From NCBI RefSeq assembly GCF_022695595.1, contig NZ_CP074380.1, forward strand, positions 7,778,501 through 7,842,500: 64,000 bases of DNA, written 5' to 3'. Below are positions 8,470 to 20,453 of the stretch, piece after piece. Both the position numbers and the translations under genes were made by a program. The notes beneath the pieces are model-generated. The model was not told the origin of the DNA, searched no databases, and saw only the letters and a list, made by a program, of their open reading frames with translations. How positions within the stretch are numbered: the stretch's first letter is position 1; each line of letters begins with the position of its first letter. Origin of the DNA: Streptomyces sp. MST-110588. Lineage in GTDB: Bacteria > Actinomycetota > Actinomycetes > Streptomycetales > Streptomycetaceae.

Positions 8470-9930
8470 TCAGGCGGCTTCGGACAGCGCCCCTATCGTC
8501 GTTCCGCGCCGCTCGGCCCAGTTCTCCAGCGTCGTACGGCAGGCGTGGTCGAGATGGCGGAGCTGGGAGAGGTCGAGTTCCACGATCCGGTTGGGCGGAA
8601 GCGCTTCGAGCGTTTCCAGCATCCGGGGCAGGCGCAGGAAAGTCGCATAGCCGGTGATCGTGACGACGAGCCGGCCGTCGGAGGGTTCCTGGACGTCCAC
8701 GTGGATGTGAGAGGTCTCCCAGGCGATCTTGACGACGGCGAGGAGCAGGCCGAGGATGACGCCTTCGAACATGTTGGTGGTGACGATGGCGACAGCCGTC
8801 GCGGCCAGTACGACCACCTCACCGCGGTGGGCGCGCCACAGCGGCGGCAGTTCCTTGACCGGGATGAGCTTGCAGCCGGCGTGGACCAGGACACCGGCGA
8901 GGGCGGCCAGCGGGATGACACCGATCGCGGCCGGCAGGAGAGCGGCGAACAGCAGCAGCCACGCCCCGTGCAGGAAACGGGAGAGGGCGGTCTTCGCCCC
9001 GGCCTGGACATTGGCGGAGCTGCGGACGATGACGGCGGTCATGGGCAGCGCGCCGAGCACGCCGCAGACGGTGTTGCCCACGCCCTGCGCCATGAGTTCC
9101 TTGTCGTAGTCGGTACGCGGGCCGTCGTGCATACGGTCGACGGCGGCGGCACTGAACAGGCTCTCGGCCGAGGCGATCAGGGCGAAGGCGAGGACCGTGC
9201 CGACGGCGGCGAGGCTGGTCAGCGAGGCGAAGTCGGAGACCCCCGGCGGCTGGATCGCCGCCAGCAGACCCTGTACCCGGACCCGGGGAACGGCCAGGCC
9301 GGCCACGGCCGTCACAAGAGTGGCCAGGGCGACCGCGGCGAGCGGGGCGGGCACCACCTGGACCCTGCGCGGGAGTTTCTTCCACAGCACCAGGACCGCG
9401 ACGGTGCCGGCGCCCACGGCGAAGGCGGTGAGTGCGGCGCCGTCGGTGACGATCTCGGCGGCGAGCCGCGGCACGCCCGTGATCTTCTCCAGTCCGGAGC
9501 GGGACTGCGCGACACCGGCCATGGTGTAGAGCTGGCCGAAGAGCAGGACCAGTCCGATGCCGGCGAGCATGCCCTGGACGACGGCCACCGATATCGCGCG
9601 GAAGAAGCGGCCGAAGCGCAGGAAGCCCAGAGCCAGTTGGATCAGGCCCGCGGCCAGGACCAGCGCGCCGAGGGCCGTCAGGCCGAATTCCTGGACGGCC
9701 TCGAAGACCAGGACGGTCAGGCCGGCGGCCGGCCCGCTGACCTGGAGGGCGCTGCCGGGCATGGCGCCGACGACAAGACCGCCGACGATGCCGGTGATCA
9801 GGCCGAGTTCGGCGGGCACCCCCGAGGCGACGGCCACCCCCACGCACAAGGGCAGAGCCACCAGGAAGACGACGAGGGAGGCCAGGAGGTCGCGTCGCAG
9901 GAAAGCGCGATCCTTGAAAGCGGAGAGCAT
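8470..9930 (-). CDS. SulP-family inorganic anion transporter
   Basis: 486 residues starting MLSAFKDRAFLRRDLLAS. It is a multi-pass SulP/SLC26 protein: LVALPLCVGVAVASGVPAELGLITGIVGG near the N-terminus, SGPAAGLTVLVFEAV, then ALIASAESLFSAAAVDRM and GALPMTAVIVRSSANVQAGAKT, the family core motifs. A C-terminal STAS domain follows (HVDVQEPSDGRLVVTITG to RIVELDLSQLRHLDH). It lies 68 bp behind a beta-carbonic anhydrase gene on the same strand. That pairing is typical of SulP proteins that take up bicarbonate, so bicarbonate is the likely substrate. Sulfate remains possible. Confidence 0.9.
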   Translation of the reverse strand: MLSAFKDRAFLRRDLLASLVVFLVALPLCVGVAVASGVPAELGLITGIVGGLVVGAMPGSALQVSGPAAGLTVLVFEAVQEFGLTALGALVLAAGLIQLALGFLRFGRFFRAISVAVVQGMLAGIGLVLLFGQLYTMAGVAQSRSGLEKITGVPRLAAEIVTDGAALTAFAVGAGTVAVLVLWKKLPRRVQVVPAPLAAVALATLVTAVAGLAVPRVRVQGLLAAIQPPGVSDFASLTSLAAVGTVLAFALIASAESLFSAAAVDRMHDGPRTDYDKELMAQGVGNTVCGVLGALPMTAVIVRSSANVQAGAKTALSRFLHGAWLLLFAALLPAAIGVIPLAALAGVLVHAGCKLIPVKELPPLWRAHRGEVVVLAATAVAIVTTNMFEGVILGLLLAVVKIAWETSHIHVDVQEPSDGRLVVTITGYATFLRLPRMLETLEALPPNRIVELDLSQLRHLDHACRTTLENWAERRGTTIGALSEAA

Positions 9931-9998
9931 GTGATGAGGTTCCTCGGACGGCAGGAGGGGGAGGGACCGGGGAGGCCCGTGGGACGGGCGGAGGCGTT

Positions 9999-10657
9999 TC
10001 ACAGCGGCCGGAATCGCGCGTCGTCGGCCCGGTACTCGCTGACTTCGCCGGTGTGGACCTCGTAGTACCAGGCGTGCACCGACAGGGTTCCTTCCGCGAC
10101 CCGTTCCGCCACGCAGGGATGGGTGCCGAGCCGCTCCAACTGGGCCACCGCGTGCCGCTGCACCGCCTGTGCCAGGTCCGGGAGGTGGGAGGAGGCCGGG
10201 GAGGTGAGGGTGGCGGAGACGGACGAGGCGGACGAGGCGGCGGGGGAGTGCGGGGCCAGGGCCTGCGCGGACCGTGGCACCGCCCGTTCGAGCCAGCCGC
10301 GCACCGCCGGCGCGGCGGACAGGTCGTCCCCCGGACCAGAGCGCTGACCGCACCGCAGTGGGAGTGGCCGCACACGATGACGTCGCGGACGCCCAGTACC
10401 CGTACCGCGTACTCGATGGTGGCCGTCTCGCCCGTGGGGTGGTCGCTGCGGTATTCGGGCACGATGTTCCCCGCCGTACGCAGCTCGAACAGCTCGCCCG
10501 GCCGCGCGCCGGTGATCAGGGACGGCACCACACGCGCGTCGGAGCACGTGATGAACAGGACTTCCGGGCACTGCCCGGCCGCGAAGGCCCGGAACTCCTC
10601 GGCCCGTCCGGCGACGTGCGTCGCGAAGGATCGTGCGTTGTCTACCAGAGACTTCAT
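9999..10657 (-). pseudogene. Beta-carbonic anhydrase, frameshifted
   Basis: The first frame (from ATG 10657) gives a beta-carbonic anhydrase with CSDARV (zinc Cys and the Asp-Arg dyad) and CGHSHCGAVSALV (zinc His and Cys). After the codons for SALVRG the frame is lost. The family continuation, DDLSAAPAVRGWLERAV to EVSEYRADDARFRPL, resumes in another frame. One G is missing in the G-run at 10328-10332. Either the gene is newly inactivated or the base is a sequencing or assembly loss. It would hydrate CO2 to bicarbonate for the SulP transporter encoded just downstream. Confidence 0.85.
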
Positions 10658-11114: not shown

Positions 11115-12602
11115 CTAGTGGTGCGAGCCGTGCCCGCTGACGCTCCCGTGGTCGTCCTCCGCCTCGCCGATTGCCTGCGCCGCCTCCAAGTGGGCCGGCA
11201 CGGCACGCGGTGGGGCGGCCAGGGCGAGAAGCGGTACGAGTGTGACCGCGAGCAGCCCGCCAGCGATCGCCAGTACGGAGTACCCGCCGGCCGCGACGAC
11301 CAGGCCCGACGCCATCCCCCCGGTGGCACCGGCGACCGACACGCCGACGTCGACCACGCCCTGGACGGCGGCGCGGGTGGCGAGCGGGACCGAGTCGGTG
11401 ACCATGGCCGTCCCGCTGACCAGCCCGAAGTTCCAGCCCAGGCCGAGGAGTACGAGCGCGGCGGCGAGGGCCGGGACCGAGTGCGCGGGAGCCAGGGCGG
11501 CGAGCAGGCCGGCGGCCAGAAGAACGACGCCGGACGCCGCCGCGACCCGCGTCCGGCCCAGGCGGTCGACGAGCAGGCCGGTGAGCGGGGAGGGCAGGAA
11601 CATCGCCCCTACGTGGAGGGCGATGACGAGACCGGCCGTGTGGGTGTCGTGTCCATGGGCGCGCATATGGACGGGGGTCATCGTCATGATCGCGATCATC
11701 ACGAGCTGGGTGAGGATCATCACCGTGGCGCCGATGACGACACCGCGCGGGCGGGCACGGCCTGTTGGGGCTTCCTCCGGGGGCGGAGGCGGGGGAGCGG
11801 AAGGGGGTGGCTGGGCCGCGGCCCGGGTACGTGCCAGGAGCAGGGGATCGGGACGCAGCAGGCACCACAGCACGGCGGCGGCGACCGCGTAGGCGACCGC
11901 GGCCAGTACGAACGGTCCCGCGAGCCGGGGCACGGCCCAGGAGTGCGCGAGGTCTCCCGTGACGCTCACGAGGTTGGGCCCGGCGACCGCGCCGAAGGTC
12001 GTGGCGAACAGGACGGTGCTCACCGCACGCCCGCGCCGGGCCGGCGAGGCCAGGTCGGCGCCCGCGTACCGGGCCAGCAGATTGGTCGCGGTGCCGGCCC
12101 CGTACACGAGGAGGGAGAGGAACAGCAGTGGTACGTCGCCCCGGGCGGCGGCCACGACGACGCCGAGGCTGCCGAGGGCGGCGGTGAGGTACCCCAGCGC
12201 GAGGCCGGGCCTGCGGCCCCACCGCTGACAGGTCCGGCCGATGCCGACGGCGCCCAGCGCGGCCCCGCCGGTGAACAGCGCGGCGGGCACACCGGCGAGA
12301 CCGGTCGAGCCGAGCATCTCCTCGGCGAGCAGCGCGCCGACGGTGATGCCCGCGGCGAGCCCCAGGCCGCTGAGGACCTGGGCGATCACCAGGACGGACA
12401 GCACCCTTTTCTGCTCGGGGGCCTCGGGCGGCTCGGGAGCCTCGGAAGGCTCGGGCGGCTCGGAAGCCTCCGGCGGCTCGGAAGGCTCGGGAGCGCCGCA
12501 CGCTGCCGGGGATTCGTCGGGACGCCGTGCGGGCCGTGTGGCCCGGGCGGCGCCGACGGGCCCGTCGCCGGTCCCCTTTCCGATGTTCCCGGGGCGCTTC
12601 AA
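11115..12602 (-). CDS. MFS exporter, last gene of the GCIS-peptide operon
   Basis: About 495 residues. A disordered N-terminal arm of about 50 residues ends in Glu/Pro/Ser repeats (EPSEPPEASEPPEPSEAPE), followed by a 12-helix MFS core (VLVIAQVLSGLGLAAGITVG; RRGRAVSTVLFATTFGAVAGPNLV; LLVDRLGRTRVAAASGVVLLA) and a His-rich tail (GSVSGHGSHH). No ATG or GTG exists between the previous gene and the homologous core. The TTG at 12602, four bases after GGAGG, is the best start. It lies 29 bp behind the GRDP-like gene, so it is co-transcribed. It probably exports the product of the operon. The His tail may bind metal, but this is unproven. Confidence 0.82.
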   Translation of the reverse strand: MKRPGNIGKGTGDGPVGAARATRPARRPDESPAACGAPEPSEPPEASEPPEPSEAPEPPEAPEQKRVLSVLVIAQVLSGLGLAAGITVGALLAEEMLGSTGLAGVPAALFTGGAALGAVGIGRTCQRWGRRPGLALGYLTAALGSLGVVVAAARGDVPLLFLSLLVYGAGTATNLLARYAGADLASPARRGRAVSTVLFATTFGAVAGPNLVSVTGDLAHSWAVPRLAGPFVLAAVAYAVAAAVLWCLLRPDPLLLARTRAAAQPPPSAPPPPPPEEAPTGRARPRGVVIGATVMILTQLVMIAIMTMTPVHMRAHGHDTHTAGLVIALHVGAMFLPSPLTGLLVDRLGRTRVAAASGVVLLAAGLLAALAPAHSVPALAAALVLLGLGWNFGLVSGTAMVTDSVPLATRAAVQGVVDVGVSVAGATGGMASGLVVAAGGYSVLAIAGGLLAVTLVPLLALAAPPRAVPAHLEAAQAIGEAEDDHGSVSGHGSHH

Positions 12603-12631
12603 GGAGCCTCCAAGAGGGATGCGCGGATTTC

Positions 12632-13210
12632 TTATGCCGCGCCCAGCGGTTCGAGTGCCGAGATCTCCTCCAGCGTCAGATCCATCTGGTGGTGGAGGAA
12701 GCGTACGATCGTCCAGTGCGGCAGCGCGCCCTCGTCGAACGGGCCGAATTCCCGGCAGTACAGCGGAACCCAGCGCAGCGCCTCTTCGGCCGCCTGCTCC
12801 CGGCCGGGTTCGCGCTGGTATTCCTCGTACGCGATGCTCCGGTGCTCGACGAAGAACCGGCCCGGCAGCCGTTGTTCGCACAGGGCGCGGTATTCACGCG
12901 TCTGGAGAATGAGATAGTGCCAGATCTCGTCGATCTCCTGTTCCACGGGCAGGAAGAGACCGCTGAGCCGGTCGCGGTACTTCGATACGAGGTACAGGTA
13001 CCGCAGGCATTCGAGGACCTGGCGCTCGACGAATTGCCGTGCCGTGTCCGTATCCGTATCCGTGTCCGTGTCCGGGGCGTCGGCGGAGGGGGAACTACGC
13101 CGTCCGCCGGCGGCGTTCGCGGTGAAATGTGTGACCACTTCGGCGTGGAGTGCCTCGCCGAGCAGTTCCTTGAGGTCGTCGGCGGACACGTAAGACTGTG
13201 CGGTCGTCAT
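12632..13210 (-). CDS. GRDP-like (DUF1399-type) protein in the GCIS-peptide operon
   Basis: 192 residues. The core IDEIWHYLILQTREYRALC and FFVEHRSIAYEEYQR resembles the plant and bacterial glycine-rich-domain-containing-protein-like family, whose signature is a VDxxWHxxL helix followed by a conserved Cys and His. The biochemical role of that family is unknown. Residues 46-57 are an expanded TDTDTDTDT run. It sits 57 bp behind the adenylate-forming enzyme and 29 bp before the exporter, so it is likely a tailoring or accessory protein of the peptide pathway. The family assignment is by motif only. Confidence 0.65.
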   Translation of the reverse strand: MTTAQSYVSADDLKELLGEALHAEVVTHFTANAAGGRRSSPSADAPDTDTDTDTDTARQFVERQVLECLRYLYLVSKYRDRLSGLFLPVEQEIDEIWHYLILQTREYRALCEQRLPGRFFVEHRSIAYEEYQREPGREQAAEEALRWVPLYCREFGPFDEGALPHWTIVRFLHHQMDLTLEEISALEPLGAA

Positions 13211-13267
13211 GGTTCTCCCGTGCAGGGGGCGGCGAGGCTGACGCCCGGCCCGTATGCGGACGGTGTG

Positions 13268-14506
13268 TCAGTGATCGGGCGCGAGCCAGGCGTATTTTCC
13301 GGACTTTCCGATGGGAAGGTGCGAGTGATGTTCCGACCGGCAGTGGCGCCCGGTCAGTTCGGCTACGGCGCGCTCCAGCCGGGCGGTCTCCGCGGCGCTC
13401 AGCGCGGCACCGTCGAAGGTGGTGTACCGCAGTTCGGCCTTCGCCTCGCCCGTCACCCGCAACTGGTGGACGAAGACGCGAGGGGAGACGCCGCCGAGGC
13501 AGTCGTCGAGATCGCCGTGGGCCACGGGGCCGTGCGGCGTGGCGAGCAACTCCTTCTCCCGGCCGCAGAACCGGGAGATCCGCTCCGGGTCCGGGGTCCC
13601 GTCCAGGGTGCGGACACAGTCCCCCGAGCGGTACCGGATCAGTGGCATGTACGGATTGCGCACACTGGTGACGATCAGGCTGAAGATACGGCTCCCCGGG
13701 GCGACCGGAAGGAGCTCGACGCTCATTCCGTCCAGATACGGGCGGTATCGCCCCTGCCGGTCGCTGTAGTACATGTAGCCGAGTTCGGTGCTGCCGAACA
13801 GGTCGATGATCGGGCACGCGAAGTGCTGTTGCAGAAAACGCCGGACGTTGACCGGGGTGTACTCGTACGCGTGGATGATGCTCGCCGGCGGCGGAAAGTC
13901 GTCCCACAGGCCCCACTGCGTGACTTTGCGTATCAGATGCGCCAAGTGGTAGCTGGAGCAGTCCAGGTGGTACCAGCCCTGCGGATGCGCCGCCCGGGCC
14001 GTCCGGATTTCGGCGAGCATCCGCTCGACGTCGGCCCGCTCCCACAGGGCCGGATCGAGCCGCAGATTGAGGTAGCGGGTGCGCGCGTCGAGCCGCCGTT
14101 CTTCCGGATCCGGTACGGGGTCCGGCTGCGCGCCGCGTTTCTTGGCGTTGACGCGGGCGACGTGTTCGGTGGCCAGCACCGTGGTCAGTGAGACGCGTTG
14201 GCAGTTCGCGTGCCAGGTCCCGGAGATGTCCGGGTGTTCGCTCCACAACCGGTAATAGGAATTGAGCAGGAAGTACGGGGGCCGGATGATCTGCATCCGG
14301 TCGTGGTGGGTGCCCGTGGACAGTACGAACTCCGCCTTGCCGGCCGCCAGTGCGTCGGCGAGCTCCGGCGTCATCCAGTTGTCGGGGAATCCGTGGGCTA
14401 TCTCCGGCTTTTCGAGTACGGGGAAGTGGCCCCGCTCGATCGACGTGCGGTAGATCGGTATGTTCTTGATCCGGTCGACGACCTCGGCCGTCGGCTGACC
14501 GTCCAT
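13268..14506 (-). CDS. PaaK-like adenylate-forming enzyme beside a Cys-repeat peptide gene
   Basis: 412 residues from the ATG at 14506, which has GAGGG five bases upstream (a GTG two codons earlier is possible). All adenylation core motifs are visible: P-loop-like STGT at 63-66, FGSTE at 237-241, RYRSGD at 291-296 (the Asp binds ribose hydroxyls), GREKEL at 315-320, and the C-terminal lysine region GKSGKY at 400-405. Similarity is to the phenylacetate-CoA ligase / coenzyme F390 synthetase branch, enzymes that activate carboxylates as acyl-AMP. The substrate is unknown. Its place as the first enzyme after the peptide gene suggests it activates a peptide carboxylate or a small acid that is joined to the peptide. 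Confidence 0.85.
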   Translation of the reverse strand: MDGQPTAEVVDRIKNIPIYRTSIERGHFPVLEKPEIAHGFPDNWMTPELADALAAGKAEFVLSTGTHHDRMQIIRPPYFLLNSYYRLWSEHPDISGTWHANCQRVSLTTVLATEHVARVNAKKRGAQPDPVPDPEERRLDARTRYLNLRLDPALWERADVERMLAEIRTARAAHPQGWYHLDCSSYHLAHLIRKVTQWGLWDDFPPPASIIHAYEYTPVNVRRFLQQHFACPIIDLFGSTELGYMYYSDRQGRYRPYLDGMSVELLPVAPGSRIFSLIVTSVRNPYMPLIRYRSGDCVRTLDGTPDPERISRFCGREKELLATPHGPVAHGDLDDCLGGVSPRVFVHQLRVTGEAKAELRYTTFDGAALSAAETARLERAVAELTGRHCRSEHHSHLPIGKSGKYAWLAPDH

Positions 14507-14542
14507 GGTCACCCTCTGAGCGTCAGGGGAAGAAGGAGTGGG

Positions 14543-14583
14543 GAGCGGGCCGGGAGTCCGGACGGATGTGTCCCGGCCCGCTC
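14543..14583 (-). terminator. Hairpin between peptide gene and first enzyme
   Basis: Perfect 13-bp inverted repeat, GAGCGGGCCGGGA (14543-14555) and TCCCGGCCCGCTC (14571-14583), with a 15-nt loop and no T-run. It stands between the peptide stop and the adenylase start. A leaky terminator or processing stem here would give more peptide than enzyme mRNA, as is common in RiPP operons. Confidence 0.6.
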
Positions 14584-14631
14584 GGGGTGTTCACTCGGTG
14601 GTTGTTCCGGAATCGAGGGATTCGGGAAACG

Positions 14632-14725
14632 GAGTCGGACTCGGAATGGGAGTCGGACTCGGAATGGGAGTCGGACTCGGACTCGGAATGGGACTTGGAG
14701 TCGGAGCAGGAGTCGTCGTCGGACT
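14632..14725. repeat. 18-bp tandem repeat in the peptide-adenylase spacer
   Basis: Two perfect units GAGTCGGACTCGGAATGG, then a partly expanded third and degenerate copies. Read on the minus strand it would extend an overlapping frame with PSPTPI units, but that frame has no good start codon. I treat the repeat as spacer DNA. Confidence 0.75.
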
Positions 14726-14748
14726 CGAAGGAACCGGCGGTTCAGAGG

Positions 14749-14904
14749 TCAGGAGATGCAGCCGGTCTTGGGTGCCGCACTGATGCAGCCCGCCTTGGGA
14801 GCCGCGCTGATACACCCGTCCTTGGCCGCCGCCTGCGCCGAGTTGACGGCGACCCAGTTCCGCCAGATGTCGTCCTGAGCCATCTTCTTGATCAGCTTTT
14901 CCAT
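14749..14904 (-). CDS. 51-aa candidate precursor peptide with three GCIS repeats
   Basis: A small gene starting MEKLIKKMAQDDIWRNWVAV. The first 27 or so residues form a charged, amphipathic leader-like helix. The C-terminus contains AAAKDGCIS, AAPKAGCIS and AAPKTGCIS in a row, with Cys at 31, 40 and 49, exactly nine residues apart, ending on Ser. Such a leader plus a repeated core is the hallmark of multi-core RiPP precursors. ATG 14904 has GGAGG six bases upstream and a strong promoter about 60 bp away. No lanthipeptide, YcaO or radical-SAM enzyme is next to it. The first enzyme is a PaaK-like adenylase. It is a product candidate, not a proven one. Confidence 0.8.
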   Translation of the reverse strand: MEKLIKKMAQDDIWRNWVAVNSAQAAAKDGCISAAPKAGCISAAPKTGCIS

Positions 14905-14964
14905 GGTGAACCTCCGAGAGGTGTCGTATGGGTGGGAGATCAGGTGGTGGTGTGACGCGTTCAG

Positions 14965-14994
14965 ACGGTAAAGTGAACACCAAGGATGTGTCAA
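14965..14994 (-). promoter_or_regulatory. Housekeeping-type promoter of the GCIS-peptide operon
   Basis: On the minus strand a consensus TTGACA (14994-14989), an 18-bp spacer, then TACCGT (14970-14965) fit a vegetative sigma promoter. Transcription would start near 14957, giving a leader of about 50 nt before the peptide ATG. Confidence 0.7.
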
Positions 14995-15045: not shown

Positions 15046-16395
15046 TCAGCCGCGCCCGGCTGTATCGCCGACGCGTCGGCCTTCGCCGGGCCGGGGCCCG
15101 GTGACCGGGATGGGAGCCAGCTTGCCGGAGCGGGCCAGAGCCGATACCGCGCCCGCGCAGACCAGCCCGGTGGCGCCGAGTACGGTCCAGGTCAGCCACC
15201 CGGCGTGGTGGGCACGGGCGAAGTCCCACAGGGCGCCGGTGGCCAGGTTGCCCACGGTGATGCCGAGCCCGGACACCGTGTTGTAGAGGCCGTAGTGAGT
15301 GGCGACCAGCTTTCCGCCGGAGAGGGAGACCACGGTGTCCATCTCCAGCGGATAGACCACCGCGCTGCCCGCGGCCAGCCCCACCACGGCCATCGCCAGG
15401 GCCGCCAGGTGCGCGGCGGTCCGCGGCGTACCGTCGGCGGCGGGGACGGCGATGGTGACCAGCGCGAGCGGGACGAATGCCAGACCCATGGCGGCCAGCC
15501 CGCGGACCATGGCCCGCGGGCCGCTCCAGCGCCGTCCGGCCCAGCCGGTCAGCCCTAGCTGCCCGGTCACCGCGACGCCGGCGGAGAGGACGAACAGGCC
15601 GCCGGTGGCCTTCGTGCCGTCGGTGCCGAGGGCGGCGTCGGCGGCCATGGGAAGGGCCAGGTAGACCTGGAAGGTCAGTACGTAGGAGCCGATCATCGCC
15701 ACCGAGAAGAGGAGGAACGGCCGGTTGGCCACCACCTGCCGCCACTGCCCCCACACCCGGTCCGCCGCCGCCGGCTCCCCGGCCCGGGCGCCGGCCCCGG
15801 CGCGGTTCCCGGCCTGTCGGCCGCCGCGGGCGGGCAGCGCCCGCCACTGGAGCACCGACAGTGCGGCGAAGACCGCCGCTGCCACCGTGCACACCAGCCG
15901 GAAGTCACCGGCCAGCAGGGCCAGCCCGACCAGCGGGCCGAGCAGCATTCCGGCCTGGTAGTAGACGTTGAAGGCGGCGAACGCCGCCACCCGTCGCTCG
16001 CCCGCCTCGACGGCCAGGTAGGCGCGTACGGCCGGGTTGAACAGGGCCCCGGCCAGCCCGGTGGCGGCCGACGCGACGATCAGGGCCGGCAGTTCGTCCA
16101 CCCAGCCCAGCAGGGCGAACCCGCCCGTACGCAGCAGGCACCCGGCCATGATCGGCGCCTTGTAGCCGTACCGGTCGGCGATCGTGCCCCCGACCAGGAA
16201 CATGCCCTGCTGGGACAGGTTGCGTATGCCCAGCACCAGTCCGACCGCCCACGCGGCCAGCCCCAGTTGGCCCGACAGATGCGCCGCCAGATAGGGCATG
16301 AGCATGTAGAAGGCGAGGTTGATGGAGAATTGGTTGGCCATCAGCATCTGCGCGGCGGGCGGGAAGGAGCGCGTGGTGCGCCACAGCGTCTTCAT
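15046..16395 (-). CDS. MFS transporter, coupled to the PLP enzyme gene
   Basis: 449 residues with 12 predicted membrane helices ([48 protein letters not shown], the MFS loop motif; [16 protein letters not shown]). A charged, repeat-containing central loop follows helix 6. The ATG overlaps the stop of the PLP gene as ATGA, so translation is coupled. It most likely exports the small molecule made by that enzyme. The fold is clear; the substrate is not. Confidence 0.85.
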
Positions 16396-17621
16396 CGGCC
16401 GCGCGCCTTCGCGCCCGCTCCCGCTCCTGGCCCTGCCCCTCTCCTCGGCCCCGCCCCTTCCTCTGCTCCCGCTCCCGCTTCCTCACCCGGTCCTGTTCCT
16501 GTTCCCGTCCCGGATTTTGGCCCCGGGCCGGCCGTCGGCCGCTCCCGTCCCCCGCCCGCAACCAGCGGATCGACCACCGTGGAGCAACGGGTCCACCGTG
16601 TCACCGTCTCCTGCGTCGGGTGGGCGATCTCCCGTGGCGCCTGCGGGGGCTGCCCGTCGAGCAACCGGTGCGCGCGGCACCAGTCGTCGTCGAACACGGT
16701 GCCGACGTAGCGCTGCGGGCCGTCGGGGAAGACCGCGGCGATCCGCGTCCTCGCCGGCAGGGTGGCCGCCAGGTGGCGGGCCGTCAGGGCGACCGCGCCC
16801 ACGCTCCAGCCACCGCTGGCGTAGCGTGCCCGGGCCAGCGCGCGGGCCGCCCACACCGCCTCGCCGGGGGCCACCCAGTGCACCTCGTCGAACAGCGCGT
16901 AATCCACGTTCCGGGGGTAGATGCTGCTGCCCAGCCCGCGCATCAGCCGGGGGGCCGCGGGCTGCCCGAAGACGGTTGAGCCGATCGCGTCCACGCCCAC
17001 CACCCGCAGGTGCGGGAAGTGCTTGCGCAGCACGCGTCCCACCCCGGCGGAATGTCCGCCGGTGCCCACGCTGACCACCAGGACGTCGATCCGTCCGAGC
17101 TGGGCGACCAGTTCGCGGGCCAGCGGCGCGTAGGCCGCCACGTTGTCGGGATTGTGGTACTGGTCCGGACACCAGGCGCCGGGGCGCTCGGCCAGCAGTC
17201 GCCCGACCAGCTCGCGGCGGGCCTGCTGCCAGCCGCCGACCGGATGCGGCGCGGACACCAGGTGCAGCTCGGCACCGTACGCTGCCAGCAGACCGCGCAT
17301 CAGCGGTTCCATGCCCGGGTCGGTGACCACCGCCAGCGGATGGCCGTAGGTGACCGCGGCCAGCGCCAGCCCCAGGCCCAGGGTGCCGGAGGTGGACTCC
17401 ACGATCGGCGCGCCGGGCAGCAGCAGACCGCGTTCGCGGGCCCGGGCGACCATGTACAGCGCGGTACGGTCCTTGATCCCGCCCGGGTTGTGCCCTTCCA
17501 GCTTGGCCCAGAAGCCGCGCCCGGCGGCGGTGAACGGCTCGCCGACCCACAGCAGCGGGGTGTCACCCACCAGGCCGGCCGGGGTACGGGAGGAGGGAAC
17601 GGTCGTGTCGAGAAAAGTCAT
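16392..17621 (-). CDS. PLP-dependent cysteine synthase-family (beta-replacement) enzyme
   Basis: 409 residues from ATG 17621 (GAGGAG eight bases upstream). It is a fold-type II PLP enzyme: GDTPLLWV near residue 20, NPGGIKDR with the PLP lysine at 50, substrate loop STSGT at 76-80, and phosphate-binding loop GTGGHSAG at 186-193. The usual Ser of NPGGSxKDR is missing and the phosphate loop has His in place of the usual Thr, so it is not a plain housekeeping CysK. The family exchanges the beta-substituent of serine or O-acetyl/phosphoserine. SbnA-like relatives make precursors such as diaminopropionate. The last 50 residues are a Gly/Pro/Ala repeat tail. Coupled to an MFS gene. Confidence 0.8.
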
Positions 17622-17768
17622 CGCGCGGAACTCCTCGTGGCCACCTGAGCGGTGGCCGCGTCGGTGAGCGGACGTGCGGACAGGACACGGCACGGCACCG
17701 CGTACGAGCCCCGCGCGACCACATGTGTGCCCACTCCGCGCGGACGCCTCACCGCGGTGCGGGGCCCG

Positions 17769-18215
17769 TCAGGCCCGCCACACCCCCAGCGCCGCCCGGA
17801 GCCGTTCGCCCAGTGGACCGGCCCGCGGCTGCCGTGCCGCTCCCGCCGCCCACCGCCCGGGCGGTGGCACCATCACGGGTACGGCGGCGACGCCGACGCA
17901 GGCCGGTGCGGCGACCGCCGCCCGCCCGCCGGACAGGCCCGGTGGATCCACCACGTCGCACTCCGGGGAGACGCCACCGTGCGAGGGCGCCGGCCCCGAC
18001 GCCCGGTCGAAGGACTCGGGCCCATCGGACGAAGCGGTCCAGGAAGCCCCCGCGAACGCGTCGGTCCGCGCTCCCGCGCCGGACTGTGGTCCGTGCGCAC
18101 ACCCCAGTACGTGCAGCACACCGACCAGCACCACGGCGAGCACCGCCGCAGCCGGACCGGTCGGCCGCCGCCCTCGGAGCGTGCTCCATACCGACACGCT
18201 GCACACCGTACGCAC
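17769..18215 (-). CDS. Small putative lipoprotein or membrane protein
   Basis: 148 residues from GTG 18215. After VRTVCSVSVWSTLRGRRP there is a hydrophobic stretch AAAVLAVVLVGVLHVLGC whose VLGC end resembles a lipobox. The rest is Ala/Pro/Gly-rich with the C-terminus LGERLRAALGVWRA. No family recognised. It lies between the isochorismatase-like and PLP genes on the same strand. Frame choice rests on the hydrophobic segment; other frames are Arg-rich shadows. Confidence 0.45.
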   Translation of the reverse strand: MRTVCSVSVWSTLRGRRPTGPAAAVLAVVLVGVLHVLGCAHGPQSGAGARTDAFAGASWTASSDGPESFDRASGPAPSHGGVSPECDVVDPPGLSGGRAAVAAPACVGVAAVPVMVPPPGRWAAGAARQPRAGPLGERLRAALGVWRA

Positions 18216-18295
18216 TCGCGCACCGAAGGACCCATAAGGCGACGCCGATTTCCGCGGGACCGGCCGAATACCGACCGGATTCCGACGCTCGGTGG

Positions 18296-18856
18296 TCACG
18301 AAGACGCGATCGCCTTGACCCAGTCGTCGACGGTGAGGACATCCGCCCACTGCGGGAACAGCCGCTCGATGAGGACCCGGTGCACCTCCGGGTCGATGTC
18401 CAGGCAGGCGTCGGACAGGACGGTGAGGCCGAAGTCCAGGTCGTTCGCCCGGCACAGGGTGGACAGCACCACAGCGCTGGTGGCGATGCCGGTGAGCACG
18501 AGGCTGTCGATACCGCGTGCCCTCAACACCACATCGAGATCGCTGCCCGAGAACGCGCTCGCCCGCCTCTTGGTGACCACCACGTCGCCCGGCCGGGGCG
18601 CGACGTCGGGGTGGATCTCGGTGCCCGGTGCGCCCTCGACGTAAAGGCCGGCCCGGGCGATGCCGGCCAGAGCCCTGTTGCGCGTGCTCACCTCGGGGAA
18701 GCCGGGACGCAGCGCGATGACCACGTAGATCACGGGGATGTCCGCCGCCCGCGCCCCGTCGATGGCTCTGCGCAGGCGTGAGAGATATCCGCGATCGCCG
18801 CCGACGAAGTCCACGATGGCCCGTTGGACGTCCATCACGAGGAGGGCACTGCTCAT
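18296..18856 (-). CDS. Isochorismatase-fold cysteine hydrolase-like protein lacking the usual Cys
   Basis: 186 residues starting MSSALLVMDVQRAIVDF, the classic isochorismatase-fold opening with its catalytic-type Asp in MDVQ. The Lys is in VVTKRRASAFSGSDLD. The nucleophile loop reads TGIATSAVVLST where the family normally has Cys near the middle of GxxTxxCV, so the classical hydrolase mechanism may be lost. A subfamily with this loop is common in actinomycetes and its function is unknown. RBS GGAG before ATG 18856. A TAGGAT -10-like box lies about 70 bp upstream, in the region shared with the divergent ThrRS leader. Confidence 0.8.
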   Translation of the reverse strand: MSSALLVMDVQRAIVDFVGGDRGYLSRLRRAIDGARAADIPVIYVVIALRPGFPEVSTRNRALAGIARAGLYVEGAPGTEIHPDVAPRPGDVVVTKRRASAFSGSDLDVVLRARGIDSLVLTGIATSAVVLSTLCRANDLDFGLTVLSDACLDIDPEVHRVLIERLFPQWADVLTVDDWVKAIASS

Positions 18857-18918
18857 GTCGTCTCCAGGATCGAAGGCGGTTCGGCCTCGCAGCCGGCCAG
18901 CGCGGGCGAAGTTCTGGT

Positions 18919-18944
18919 GTACGAATCCTATGTACGAAACCTGG
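18919..18944. promoter_or_regulatory. Direct repeat and -10 box in the divergent promoter region
   Basis: Two 13-bp direct repeats starting GTACGAATCCT and GTACGAAACCT follow each other. On the minus strand the first contains TAGGAT, a good Streptomyces -10 for the isochorismatase-like gene. The pair could be a regulator site. Confidence 0.35.
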
Positions 18945-19047
18945 GGATGGCTTGGTCTCGCCGTACCCGGCCGGTTGCGCCGCACTCCTCGAACTCCGCC
19001 CGGAGCGGCGGGAAAACGCCCGCGCGGGCACCACGGTGCCCCTGCTA

Positions 19048-19058
19048 GCCTGATCGAC
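19048..19058 (+). promoter_or_regulatory. Likely -10 region of the ThrRS leader transcript
   Basis: A TAGCCT hexamer seven bases before the leader ATG would place the transcription start at or next to the ATG, giving a leaderless leader-peptide mRNA. The -35 is not clear. Confidence 0.4.
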
Positions 19059-19112
19059 ATGGAGCGCGCCGACATGATGACGACGACGCCGGAGAGTGTC
19101 CCGGCGCGCTGA
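19059..19112 (+). CDS. 17-aa threonine-codon leader peptide
   Basis: Reads MERADMMTTTPESVPAR then TGA. Three consecutive ACG (Thr) codons at 19080-19088 precede a threonyl-tRNA synthetase gene. An 8-bp perfect inverted repeat (GCGCGCCG at 19064-19071, CGGCGCGC at 19102-19109) spans the peptide and a terminator-like hairpin follows at once. This is the arrangement of ribosome-mediated attenuation: low Thr-tRNA would stall the ribosome on the Thr codons and disturb folding. It is seen only in sequence and is untested. Confidence 0.65.
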   Translation: MERADMMTTTPESVPAR

Positions 19113-19127
19113 GAGATGTCTTGAGCC

Positions 19128-19157
19128 AAAGCCCCGGGGCGAGTGCCCCGGGGCTTT
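19128..19157 (+). terminator. Attenuator hairpin before the ThrRS gene
   Basis: Perfect 13-bp stem AAAGCCCCGGGGC / GCCCCGGGGCTTT with a GAGT loop, located 15 nt after the leader-peptide stop and 69 nt before the ThrRS start. There is no upstream plus-strand gene it could serve, so a conditional terminator for the ThrRS transcript is the simplest reading. Confidence 0.75.
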
Positions 19158-19226
19158 GCCGTGGGGCCCCGGCCGAGGGTTCGGGGCAGGTCACTCGCCC
19201 GCTTCCACGAGCACGAGGAGACCACC

Positions 19227-20453
19227 GTGTACGACCACCACAAGCTCGGCCGTGAACTGTCCCTGTTCGACACCGACCCGCTGACCGGCGCCGGACTGCC
19301 GTACTGGCTGCCCGACGGCGCGGCCGTACGGCACGCCCTGGAGGAGTACATCCGCAGCGCCGAACGGCGGGCGGGCTACCGGCACGTGTACTCACCGGTG
19401 CTCGGCAAACGCGAGCTGTACGAGATCTCGGGCCACTGGTCGCACTACAGCCAGGACATGTTCCCGCCGATGGACCTGGGTAACGAACAGGTCGTACTGC
19501 GCCCGAGCCTGTGCCCCCACCACGCGCTGATCTACCGCTCCCGCTCCCACAGCTACCGCGAACTCCCCTTGCGCATGGCCGAGTTGGGCGACATGTACCG
19601 GTCCGAGCTGTCGGGCGTACTGGGCGGGCTCTCCCGCGTACGGGCGATCCACCTGAACGACGCCCACATCTTCTGCACCCTGGAGCAGGTCGCCGAGGAA
19701 GCACAGGCCGCCCTGTCGATGATCCGCCGGGCGTACGAGGCACTTGGCATCACCCCGTCCCGCTACCGGCTCTCCCTCCCGGGCCCGGGAGGCAAGTACG
19801 TCGCCGGTCCCGAGATGTGGCAGCGGTCCACCGCCTTGCTGACCGACGTCCTCGACCGTTCCGGGCTGTCCTACGAGCGGGGTGAGGGCGAGGCCGCGTT
19901 CTACGGGCCCAAGATCGACGTCCAGGTCGCCGACGGCGCGGGCCGGGAGTCCACCCTGTCCACCGTCCAGGTCGACTTCCACCAGCCCGAGCGGTTCGAC
20001 CTGCACTACATCGGCGCGGACGGTGCCCGGCACCGGCCGGTCATGGTCCACCGCAGCGTCATCGGGAGCGTGGAGCGCGCCGTCGCCCACCTCATCGAAC
20101 AGCACGGCGGCGCCTTCCCGGCCTGGTTCGCCCCCACCCAGGTCATGATCCTGCCGGTCTCGCAGGCCCAACTGCCCGACGCCGACGCGCTCGCCCGGCG
20201 ATGCGCCGACCTCGGGCTGCGCGCCGAGACCGCCGGTCCTGGAGGCGGGAGCCTGGGAGCCCGTATCCGAAGGGCGCGCCTGGTTCCCTATCAGGCCGTC
20301 ATCGGGGCCAAGGAGGCCGCCGACCACCACGTCGCCCTGCGCCTGCGCGACGGCCGCCGCCTGGACCCGCAGCCCGTCGAGGACGCCCTCGCCCGTATAG
20401 GCGCGCTCGTCGGCTCCTACAGCACCGAACTGTGGGACGCCGCCGCCTCGTAA
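19227..20453 (+). CDS. Short threonyl-tRNA synthetase paralogue (catalytic and anticodon domains only)
   Basis: 408 residues from GTG 19227, with GAGGAG six bases upstream. It contains the class II catalytic core of ThrRS: LRPSLCPHH with zinc Cys96, motif 2 around YRSELSGVLGGLSRVR (125-139), NDAHIFC with zinc His147, FYGPKIDV (225-232), and VHRSVIGSVERA with zinc His275 and motif 3. A C-terminal anticodon-binding domain follows. The TGS and N2 editing domains of normal bacterial ThrRS (about 650 residues) are absent, so it cannot proofread Ser in cis. Extra ThrRS copies act as self-resistance in borrelidin and obafluorin producers. Its attenuator and its position beside a biosynthetic block suggest the same, or supply of Thr-tRNA. 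Confidence 0.88.
   Translation: MYDHHKLGRELSLFDTDPLTGAGLPYWLPDGAAVRHALEEYIRSAERRAGYRHVYSPVLGKRELYEISGHWSHYSQDMFPPMDLGNEQVVLRPSLCPHHALIYRSRSHSYRELPLRMAELGDMYRSELSGVLGGLSRVRAIHLNDAHIFCTLEQVAEEAQAALSMIRRAYEALGITPSRYRLSLPGPGGKYVAGPEMWQRSTALLTDVLDRSGLSYERGEGEAAFYGPKIDVQVADGAGRESTLSTVQVDFHQPERFDLHYIGADGARHRPVMVHRSVIGSVERAVAHLIEQHGGAFPAWFAPTQVMILPVSQAQLPDADALARRCADLGLRAETAGPGGGSLGARIRRARLVPYQAVIGAKEAADHHVALRLRDGRRLDPQPVEDALARIGALVGSYSTELWDAAAS

Follow-up and report, generated by a model that had tools for sequence, protein, structure and literature searches.

The locus considered here raises the question of what a short, cysteine-bearing repeat peptide is made for when its gene heads an operon that also encodes an adenylate-forming enzyme. 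It lies in Streptomyces sp. MST-110588, in a stretch of 64,000 nt (hereafter, the window) covering positions 7,778,501-7,842,500 of the 7.9-Mb single-contig genome, and it carries on one strand, in this order, the peptide gene and the genes for a PaaK-like ligase, a GRDP-like protein and a transporter of the major facilitator superfamily (MFS) (Table 1). An initial annotation had taken these genes for an operon of the type that makes a ribosomally synthesized and post-translationally modified peptide (RiPP), with a leader and tandem cores in the precursor and without a familiar maturation enzyme, and this view is supported by the present analysis: the system formed by the first three genes is real and conserved, and a RiPP pathway is very probably its best reading. 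Hallmark enzymes of the described RiPP classes (LanM/LanB, YcaO, radical SAM, lasso, ATP-grasp) were found neither by Pfam and NCBIfam among nine operon and neighbour proteins of the window nor by Pfam among 20 neighbour proteins of relatives' loci. The MFS gene noted downstream, for a probable exporter, is indeed present, and it is the only one of the four operon genes with a Pfam match over the cut-off.

The predicted 51-aa open reading frame (ORF), with Cys at positions 31, 40 and 49 in three 27-nt units, is genuine. It is not a chance ORF, because a peptide of this kind was found in 51/51 relatives and the motif K.GC[IV]S, in the six-frame translation of 856,777 bp, was confined to 51 frames, each with at least two copies and never a single one. 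The protein database holds 64 homologues of the window precursor, and one precursor locus was found in each of 14 genomes searched with the precursor set A3, with one extra weak match elsewhere in genome G693 (E 0.006). At the same time, the window precursor fell below the cut-off of all RiPP-precursor models tried, the NHLP-related peptide model giving 13.1 of 34 bits. Among 60 distinct full precursors, the number of units ranges from 2 to 7, and in 15 diverse precursors the leader residues M1, W14, W17 and N21 are invariant. A gene-encoded precursor with a leader and a core region, one of the marks of a RiPP, is thus what the 60 precursors and set A3 display.

The proposal had also been made to depend on the repeated cysteine pattern being kept in relatives, and all 187 Cys of the 60 precursors stand in G-C-[IV]-S, with Gly at -1 and Ser at +2 in 187 cases, Ile (177) or Val (10) at +1 and Lys at -3 in 180; since this set was picked by the presence of GC[IV]S twice, part of the conservation of the unit is by construction. 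The seven Lys-less units, counted by eye, are first units of Sorangium, Paraburkholderia and Burkholderia precursors, and Lys is likewise absent from the first unit of the precursor of L138 and from the second unit (AAPAGCIS) of L150, whereas loss of Cys was seen in one GYIS unit of L014 and one GRIS unit of L100. The L138 precursor, MSTIVQMMTQDANWSKWLEANGAASEGCISKPGCISKPGCISDK, comes from the most divergent locus read, whose ligase is 47% identical to that of the window. The repeat had been written AAPKxGCIS; its AAP part varies, and the unit is therefore better given as K-x-G-C-[I/V]-S. Ser codons of both types are used in the units (79 AGY against 98 TCN), as is every Gly codon, and selection has therefore acted on the amino acids and not on the DNA. 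One earlier suggestion was not supported, namely that the adenylase activates the peptide's own C-terminus, which is unlikely because that end varies: it is GCIS or GCVS in 52/60 precursors, and CISR, SKG, QAG, KAG, RSS or RGS in the other 8/60.

The linkage of the three genes was seen from two entry points. When each species was represented by a single genome and scanned for exact words from the window ligase, 51 loci were obtained (29 from Streptomyces, 8 from Nocardia, 6 from Pseudonocardiaceae, 4 from Burkholderiaceae and 4 from Sorangium); in 51/51, a short ORF built like the window precursor stands upstream of the ligase gene and a GRDP-like gene follows it. As the ligase had served as the query of this first search, a second entry, through a profile of the GRDP-like protein, was added. 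Thirty-seven of 295 Streptomyces genomes matched it at 1e-10 or better, 36 of them strongly (E <=1e-74, the window's own included), which corresponds to the operon occurring in about 1 in 8 sampled Streptomyces genomes. The ligase and a full-length precursor accompany the GRDP-like gene in 35 of these 36 genomes, window included, and in the remaining one (G411) the locus starts at a contig end; G471 (E 3.6e-11) carries a different GRDP-like protein, without ligase or peptide. Dedicated enzyme genes are thus linked to the precursor (51/51, and 35/36 by the GRDP entry), as in RiPP pathways.

In wider samples the distribution is sparse. In the phylum sample the GRDP profile matched 9/396 genomes at 0.001, strongly in the window's own only, the other eight (E 5e-7 to 5e-4) having distant GRDP-like proteins. 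The ligase profile matched at least 1/282 genomes in the phylum of Sorangium and at least 1/274 in the class of Paraburkholderia (each time the centre genome), at least 2/151 in the family of Nocardia and at least 7/200 in the family of Amycolatopsis (centres included, one of the seven being weak: G1589, E 3e-16); these wider-sample counts are lower bounds because the first look scored part of the candidates. All five strong hits beyond the centres and the known Kutzneria genome have the three genes, one of them (L139) being the same sequence as L036; the precursor is accordingly present in 4/4 further distinct loci, down to 47% ligase identity. Homologous operons lacking the peptide, which the initial annotation had said would refute the proposal, number 0 among 55 distinct loci. 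Additionally, ligase and GRDP-like distances are correlated over 56 loci, 55 of them different (r = 0.92, permuted maximum 0.20), and in the ligase tree, midpoint-rooted only, Sorangium stands beside an Amycolatopsis-family genome amid actinobacterial rows (support 97/84), as horizontal transfer would lead one to expect.

The adenylase had been described as PaaK-like. The fold, which is that of PaaK-like ANL enzymes and gives strong matches to them, the motifs (STGT 65-68, GSTE 240-243, RYxxGD 293-298, R318 and SGK 404-406) and weak NCBIfam and PDB-profile matches agree with this kinship, whereas Pfam does not register it: AMP-binding (PF00501) gave no match for the window ligase (best E 0.15, in 2/18 members). 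The P-loop, GSTE, RY..GD and SGK are identical in 177/177 aligned rows, which overlap between database proteins and loci. Judged by its sequence, the ligase appears to be a divergent branch of the ANL superfamily; as PaaK proper it was rejected, with 17.4 bits for NCBIfam TIGR02155 against a cut-off of 646.3. A distant PaaK-like ligase was also seen at L143:4429-5733, between NRPS-like and PLP-enzyme-like genes identified by eye, and neither a GRDP-like gene nor a repeat peptide was found at that locus.

The label "GRDP-like" for the third protein is a provisional one that draws on motif residues and a structural-model match and not on Pfam, which returned no family for the window protein and one unrelated match (E 0.042) in 1/18 members; the GRDP-like proteins of the database carry a precomputed PF27765, and the Pfam copy searched was without this family. 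D94, E95, W97, H98, T104, Y107, C111 and H123 are identical in 177/177 aligned rows, and the signature W-H...T..Y..C...H is common to distant bacterial homologues at L109, L110 and L112. The top BFVD match of the predicted model is a GRDP-like protein of Harvfovirus (probability 1.00, TM 0.63 by target, E 0.14). Note that several distant GRDP-like proteins (L109:4479-5111, L110:2838-3338, L112:4886-5686 and L114:5047-5505) end in Cys-bearing tails, such as GCGSGGGCGSSCGGG, CNSGDGKCC and CDSDCG, which are perhaps substrates in cis.

The near-consensus promoter noticed ahead of the peptide gene, although unreported by a generic sigma-70 scan in the window, has counterparts in relatives: TTGAC[A/G/T]-N17/18-TAnnnT precedes the precursor in 39/41 distinct Streptomyces upstream regions, window included (L104 and L105 are the two without it), and CTTGG occurs within the spacer in 28/39. 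The gap between precursor and ligase measures roughly 49-462 nt in 62 sequences, with ligase starts guessed. In 51/62 of them the first 80-nt stretch beyond the precursor stop folds with z <= -2 (median -3.4), compared with 3/62 for random 80-nt stretches of the same loci, the z scores being derived from simple shuffles. In the usual reading, such a stem-loop would leave the precursor transcript in excess over those of the enzymes. Where most relatives have it, the window has a low-complexity GGAGTC/GGACTC/GGAATG repeat (14625-14738).

For the RiPP reading, the following pathway can be proposed. The first gene would supply a leader with tandem K-x-G-C-[I/V]-S cores, probably in larger amounts than the enzymes. 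A carboxylic acid would be adenylated by the PaaK-like ligase; this acid is probably a primary metabolite, as a gene for making it was not seen to travel with the ligase, and it could be an alpha-amino acid. The acyl group would then pass to a core side chain, with the Cys thiol as first choice and the Ser hydroxyl or Lys amine after it, possibly in the first step of two. As an obligate partner, the GRDP-like protein would bind the peptide or complete the bond; proteolysis at Lys/Arg-rich linkers would release the repeat units, and the MFS pump would export them. Of this scheme, the conserved precursor, the order of the genes, the strict linkage of the three of them and the ANL motifs and fold are shown; the peptide as substrate of the ligase, the acceptor residue, the part played by the GRDP-like protein, the proteolysis and the export are inferred. 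Of the mechanisms considered, we slightly favour acylation of the core by the ligase at the expense of ATP, and the explanation as a whole, a RiPP-type pathway in which the ligase acylates tandem cores, is given a little better than an even chance. More tentatively, and with somewhat less than even confidence, the system may represent a new RiPP class of Actinomycetota, Burkholderiaceae and Myxococcota in which an ANL ligase acylates or aminoacylates each unit directly with ATP and the GRDP-like protein is its obligate partner. The literature searched held no description of this peptide-ligase-GRDP-like system, nor of this acylation chemistry on ribosomal peptides.

Several points weigh against this explanation. 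Neither a modified peptide nor a ligase activity nor a mutant is known, and the substrate of the ligase could be a free small molecule. The 51 loci, picked by exact words of the window ligase, are one family, and 51/51 is therefore not a count of 51 independent events. The acceptor residue is not readable from the sequence, because each of K, G, C, I/V and S is almost invariant in the unit, and a catalytic role of the GRDP-like protein is a guess, because no solved relative was found by sequence or Foldseek and no chemistry is assigned to it. No protease gene was found conserved with the system, and the window itself, one of the 11 exceptions, has no clear stem-loop (z -1.1).

The proposal can be compared with several described systems. 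The ligases NatL2, AjiA1 and ClxA (PDB 6siw, 6wuq and 9s45) share the PaaK-like fold and the adenylate-forming motifs with the window ligase, at 15-18% identity in structural alignments. NatL2 and ClxA were solved with small aryl acids, whereas the present ligase is tied to a ribosomal peptide. NatL2 is described in PMC7204872 as joining the acyl-AMP directly to a second molecule without CoA, with a zinc partner. This partner is an amidohydrolase, in contrast to the GRDP-like protein here, and no zinc amidohydrolase of that type was found among the scanned window proteins or the scanned neighbours in 7 and 3 relatives. From the phenylacetate-CoA ligase PaaK (PDB 2y27) the window ligase differs in lying far below the PaaK cut-off; coenzyme F390 synthetase is a further system for comparison. 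Multi-core precursors of the cyanobactin, microviridin and dikaritin types have, as here, an N-terminal leader and tandem near-identical cores, but the present operon has no described-class maturation enzyme that could be found, and its core is K-x-G-C-[I/V]-S. Pearlins and TglA, made by peptide aminoacyl-tRNA ligases (PEARLs), would share the acyl or aminoacyl addition to a ribosomal peptide; there the enzyme is tRNA-dependent and LanB-like and the site is the C-terminus, whereas an ATP-dependent ANL ligase and many internal sites are proposed here. With GRDP-like proteins of plants, giant viruses and bacteria, the window protein may be compared tentatively, on the viral model match and the bacterial W-H/T/Y/C/H signature, and it differs in having neither a glycine-rich tail nor a Pfam match.

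Several identical Cys sites and a stand-alone ligase would also suit a carrier peptide, that is, a Cys-repeat scaffold loaded by the ligase with a small acid that is then elaborated and released, so that the peptide is not the product. Such a logic is known from PEARL/TglA or LysW carriers, thioesters are made by many ANL ligases, and a flavin monooxygenase that could tailor a small molecule is encoded adjacent to the system in 8 loci and beside its MFS gene in 2 more (10/51). Known carriers, however, use one fixed scaffold end, unlike the variable C-terminus and the 2 to 7 units seen here, and, the MFS pump aside, no further gene was found constant across lineages; a carrier role is therefore considered unlikely. 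The 2-7 thiols per short peptide could instead point to metal handling by an exported, unmodified or lightly modified peptide, in which case the ligase would make a capping group, while insertion or sensing of the metal would fall to the GRDP-like protein. D94, E95, H98, C111 and H123 of the latter, fixed in 177/177 rows, and the MFS pump are consistent with such a function, as are a molybdate/sulfate-type ABC transporter (ABC_tran + TOBE) and a solute-binding protein, both encoded farther out in part of the Streptomyces loci (their clusters comprise 12 and 6 genes, respectively, other ABC proteins being included in the first, and one member of each was scanned). The thiols, however, are at least 6 positions apart and not in CxC or CxxC pairs, and among the annotated part of the neighbours no metal gene was constant across lineages, which makes this function rather improbable.

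Two further explanations were considered. As an unmodified secreted signal encoded in one operon with a ligase of an unrelated pathway, the peptide would agree with the fact that no modification has been seen, and nothing direct favours it; strict three-gene linkage and co-variation in distant lineages make an unrelated ligase very unlikely. As a translated attenuator, with repeated Cys, Ile and Ser codons that respond to charged tRNA and thereby regulate the ligase operon, it would account for a short ORF upstream of enzymes, for the repeated residues and for the stem-loop in the gap of most relatives. Attenuation leaders would be expected to conserve regulatory codons and leave the leader sequence free, and the opposite pattern was seen: the amino-acid sequence of the leader, outside the repeats, is kept in three phyla, the codons used for Gly and Ser change freely, and the window has neither a clear stem-loop nor an Rfam match between 11000 and 15200. 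The attenuator is accordingly given hardly any probability.

If acylation of tandem cores in a RiPP-type pathway is correct, the system would be a RiPP class that probably escapes class-based genome mining, since none of its precursor, ligase and GRDP-like protein had a Pfam match over the cut-off in the copy used. With only three genes, it would also be a genetically minimal system in which to study ATP-driven acylation at internal sites of a peptide. It would, moreover, give a first function for a bacterial GRDP-like domain and, with it, a way into what the bacterial GRDP-like proteins do.

Table 1 Features of the peptide operon, in window coordinates
Feature	Position	Strand	Basis
-35 element of the operon promoter, TTGACA	14989..14994	-	Sequence; counterparts in Streptomyces upstream regions
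-10 element, TACCGT, 18-nt spacer from -35	14965..14970	-	Sequence; counterparts in Streptomyces upstream regions
Shine-Dalgarno sequence GGAGG, 6 nt ahead of ATG	14911..14915	-	Sequence
Precursor peptide coding sequence, 51 aa + stop, ATG start	14749..14904	-	ORF; homologues
Precursor leader, residues 1-27	14824..14904	-	Alignment of 15 diverse precursors
Core unit 1, K28-D-G-C31-I-S33	14806..14823	-	Sequence; 60-precursor comparison
Core unit 2, K37-A-G-C40-I-S42	14779..14796	-	Sequence; 60-precursor comparison
Core unit 3, K46-T-G-C49-I-S51	14752..14769	-	Sequence; 60-precursor comparison
236-nt gap from precursor to ligase, GGAGTC-type low-complexity repeat	14513..14748	-	Sequence; folding
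PaaK-like adenylate-forming ligase of the ANL superfamily, 414 aa	13268..14512	-	Motifs; fold; profile matches
GRDP-like protein, all-helical, 192 aa	12632..13210	-	Conserved residues; model match
MFS transporter, probable exporter, start codon uncertain	about 11115..12605	-	Pfam MFS_1, E 4.7e-32

Several genes recur near the system, part of the neighbours being annotated. An MFS gene, belonging to one of several subfamilies, is in the locus in 46/51 cases (26/29 Streptomyces, 8/8 Nocardia, 5/6 Pseudonocardiaceae, 3/4 Burkholderiaceae and 4/4 Sorangium). The flavin monooxygenase, encoded at L032 (11081-12769), L033, L034, L042, L035, L036, L038, L040, L028 and L054, travels with this MFS gene in Sorangium, Pseudonocardiaceae and two Streptomyces loci; its best NCBIfam match, below the cut-off, is PtlE, an enzyme of the Baeyer-Villiger type. 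A carbonic anhydrase gene, a SulP gene or both lie within about 8-9 kb in 24/29 Streptomyces loci (L004-L054), in at least three arrangements, and eight genomes of the genus have 3-11 carbonic anhydrase and 2-10 SulP family matches. Both genes are also present at the L138 locus, and L033 has a distant carbonic anhydrase match. In the window, the beta-carbonic anhydrase gene at 9999-10657 (-) has its N- and C-terminal parts in different frames (C-terminal Pro_CA E 8.8e-8) and is a disrupted or mis-sequenced copy, adjoined by a SulP transporter gene at 8470-9942 (-).

A divergently oriented HypX-like gene lies directly upstream of the precursor in nine Streptomyces loci of related species (e.g., L021:5606-7339). 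Its product has formyl transferase and enoyl-CoA hydratase domains in the one member scanned, and either a one-carbon link or mere synteny may explain its position. Further neighbours that recur, like the HypX-like gene, in one to a few clades encode an amino-acid permease, an F420H2 quinone reductase, an ABC transporter with TOBE, a solute-binding protein, regulators, an FAD-binding protein and an acetyltransferase. On the other side of the operon promoter, a separate-looking group at 15046-20453 comprises genes for an MFS protein (15046-16395), an SbnA-like PLP enzyme (16392-17618), an isochorismatase (18296-18838) and a short threonyl-tRNA synthetase-like protein (19212-20453, profile match from position 166). 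This group was not found beside the peptide operon elsewhere among the 51 loci, and it is possibly a small biosynthetic or resistance cluster.

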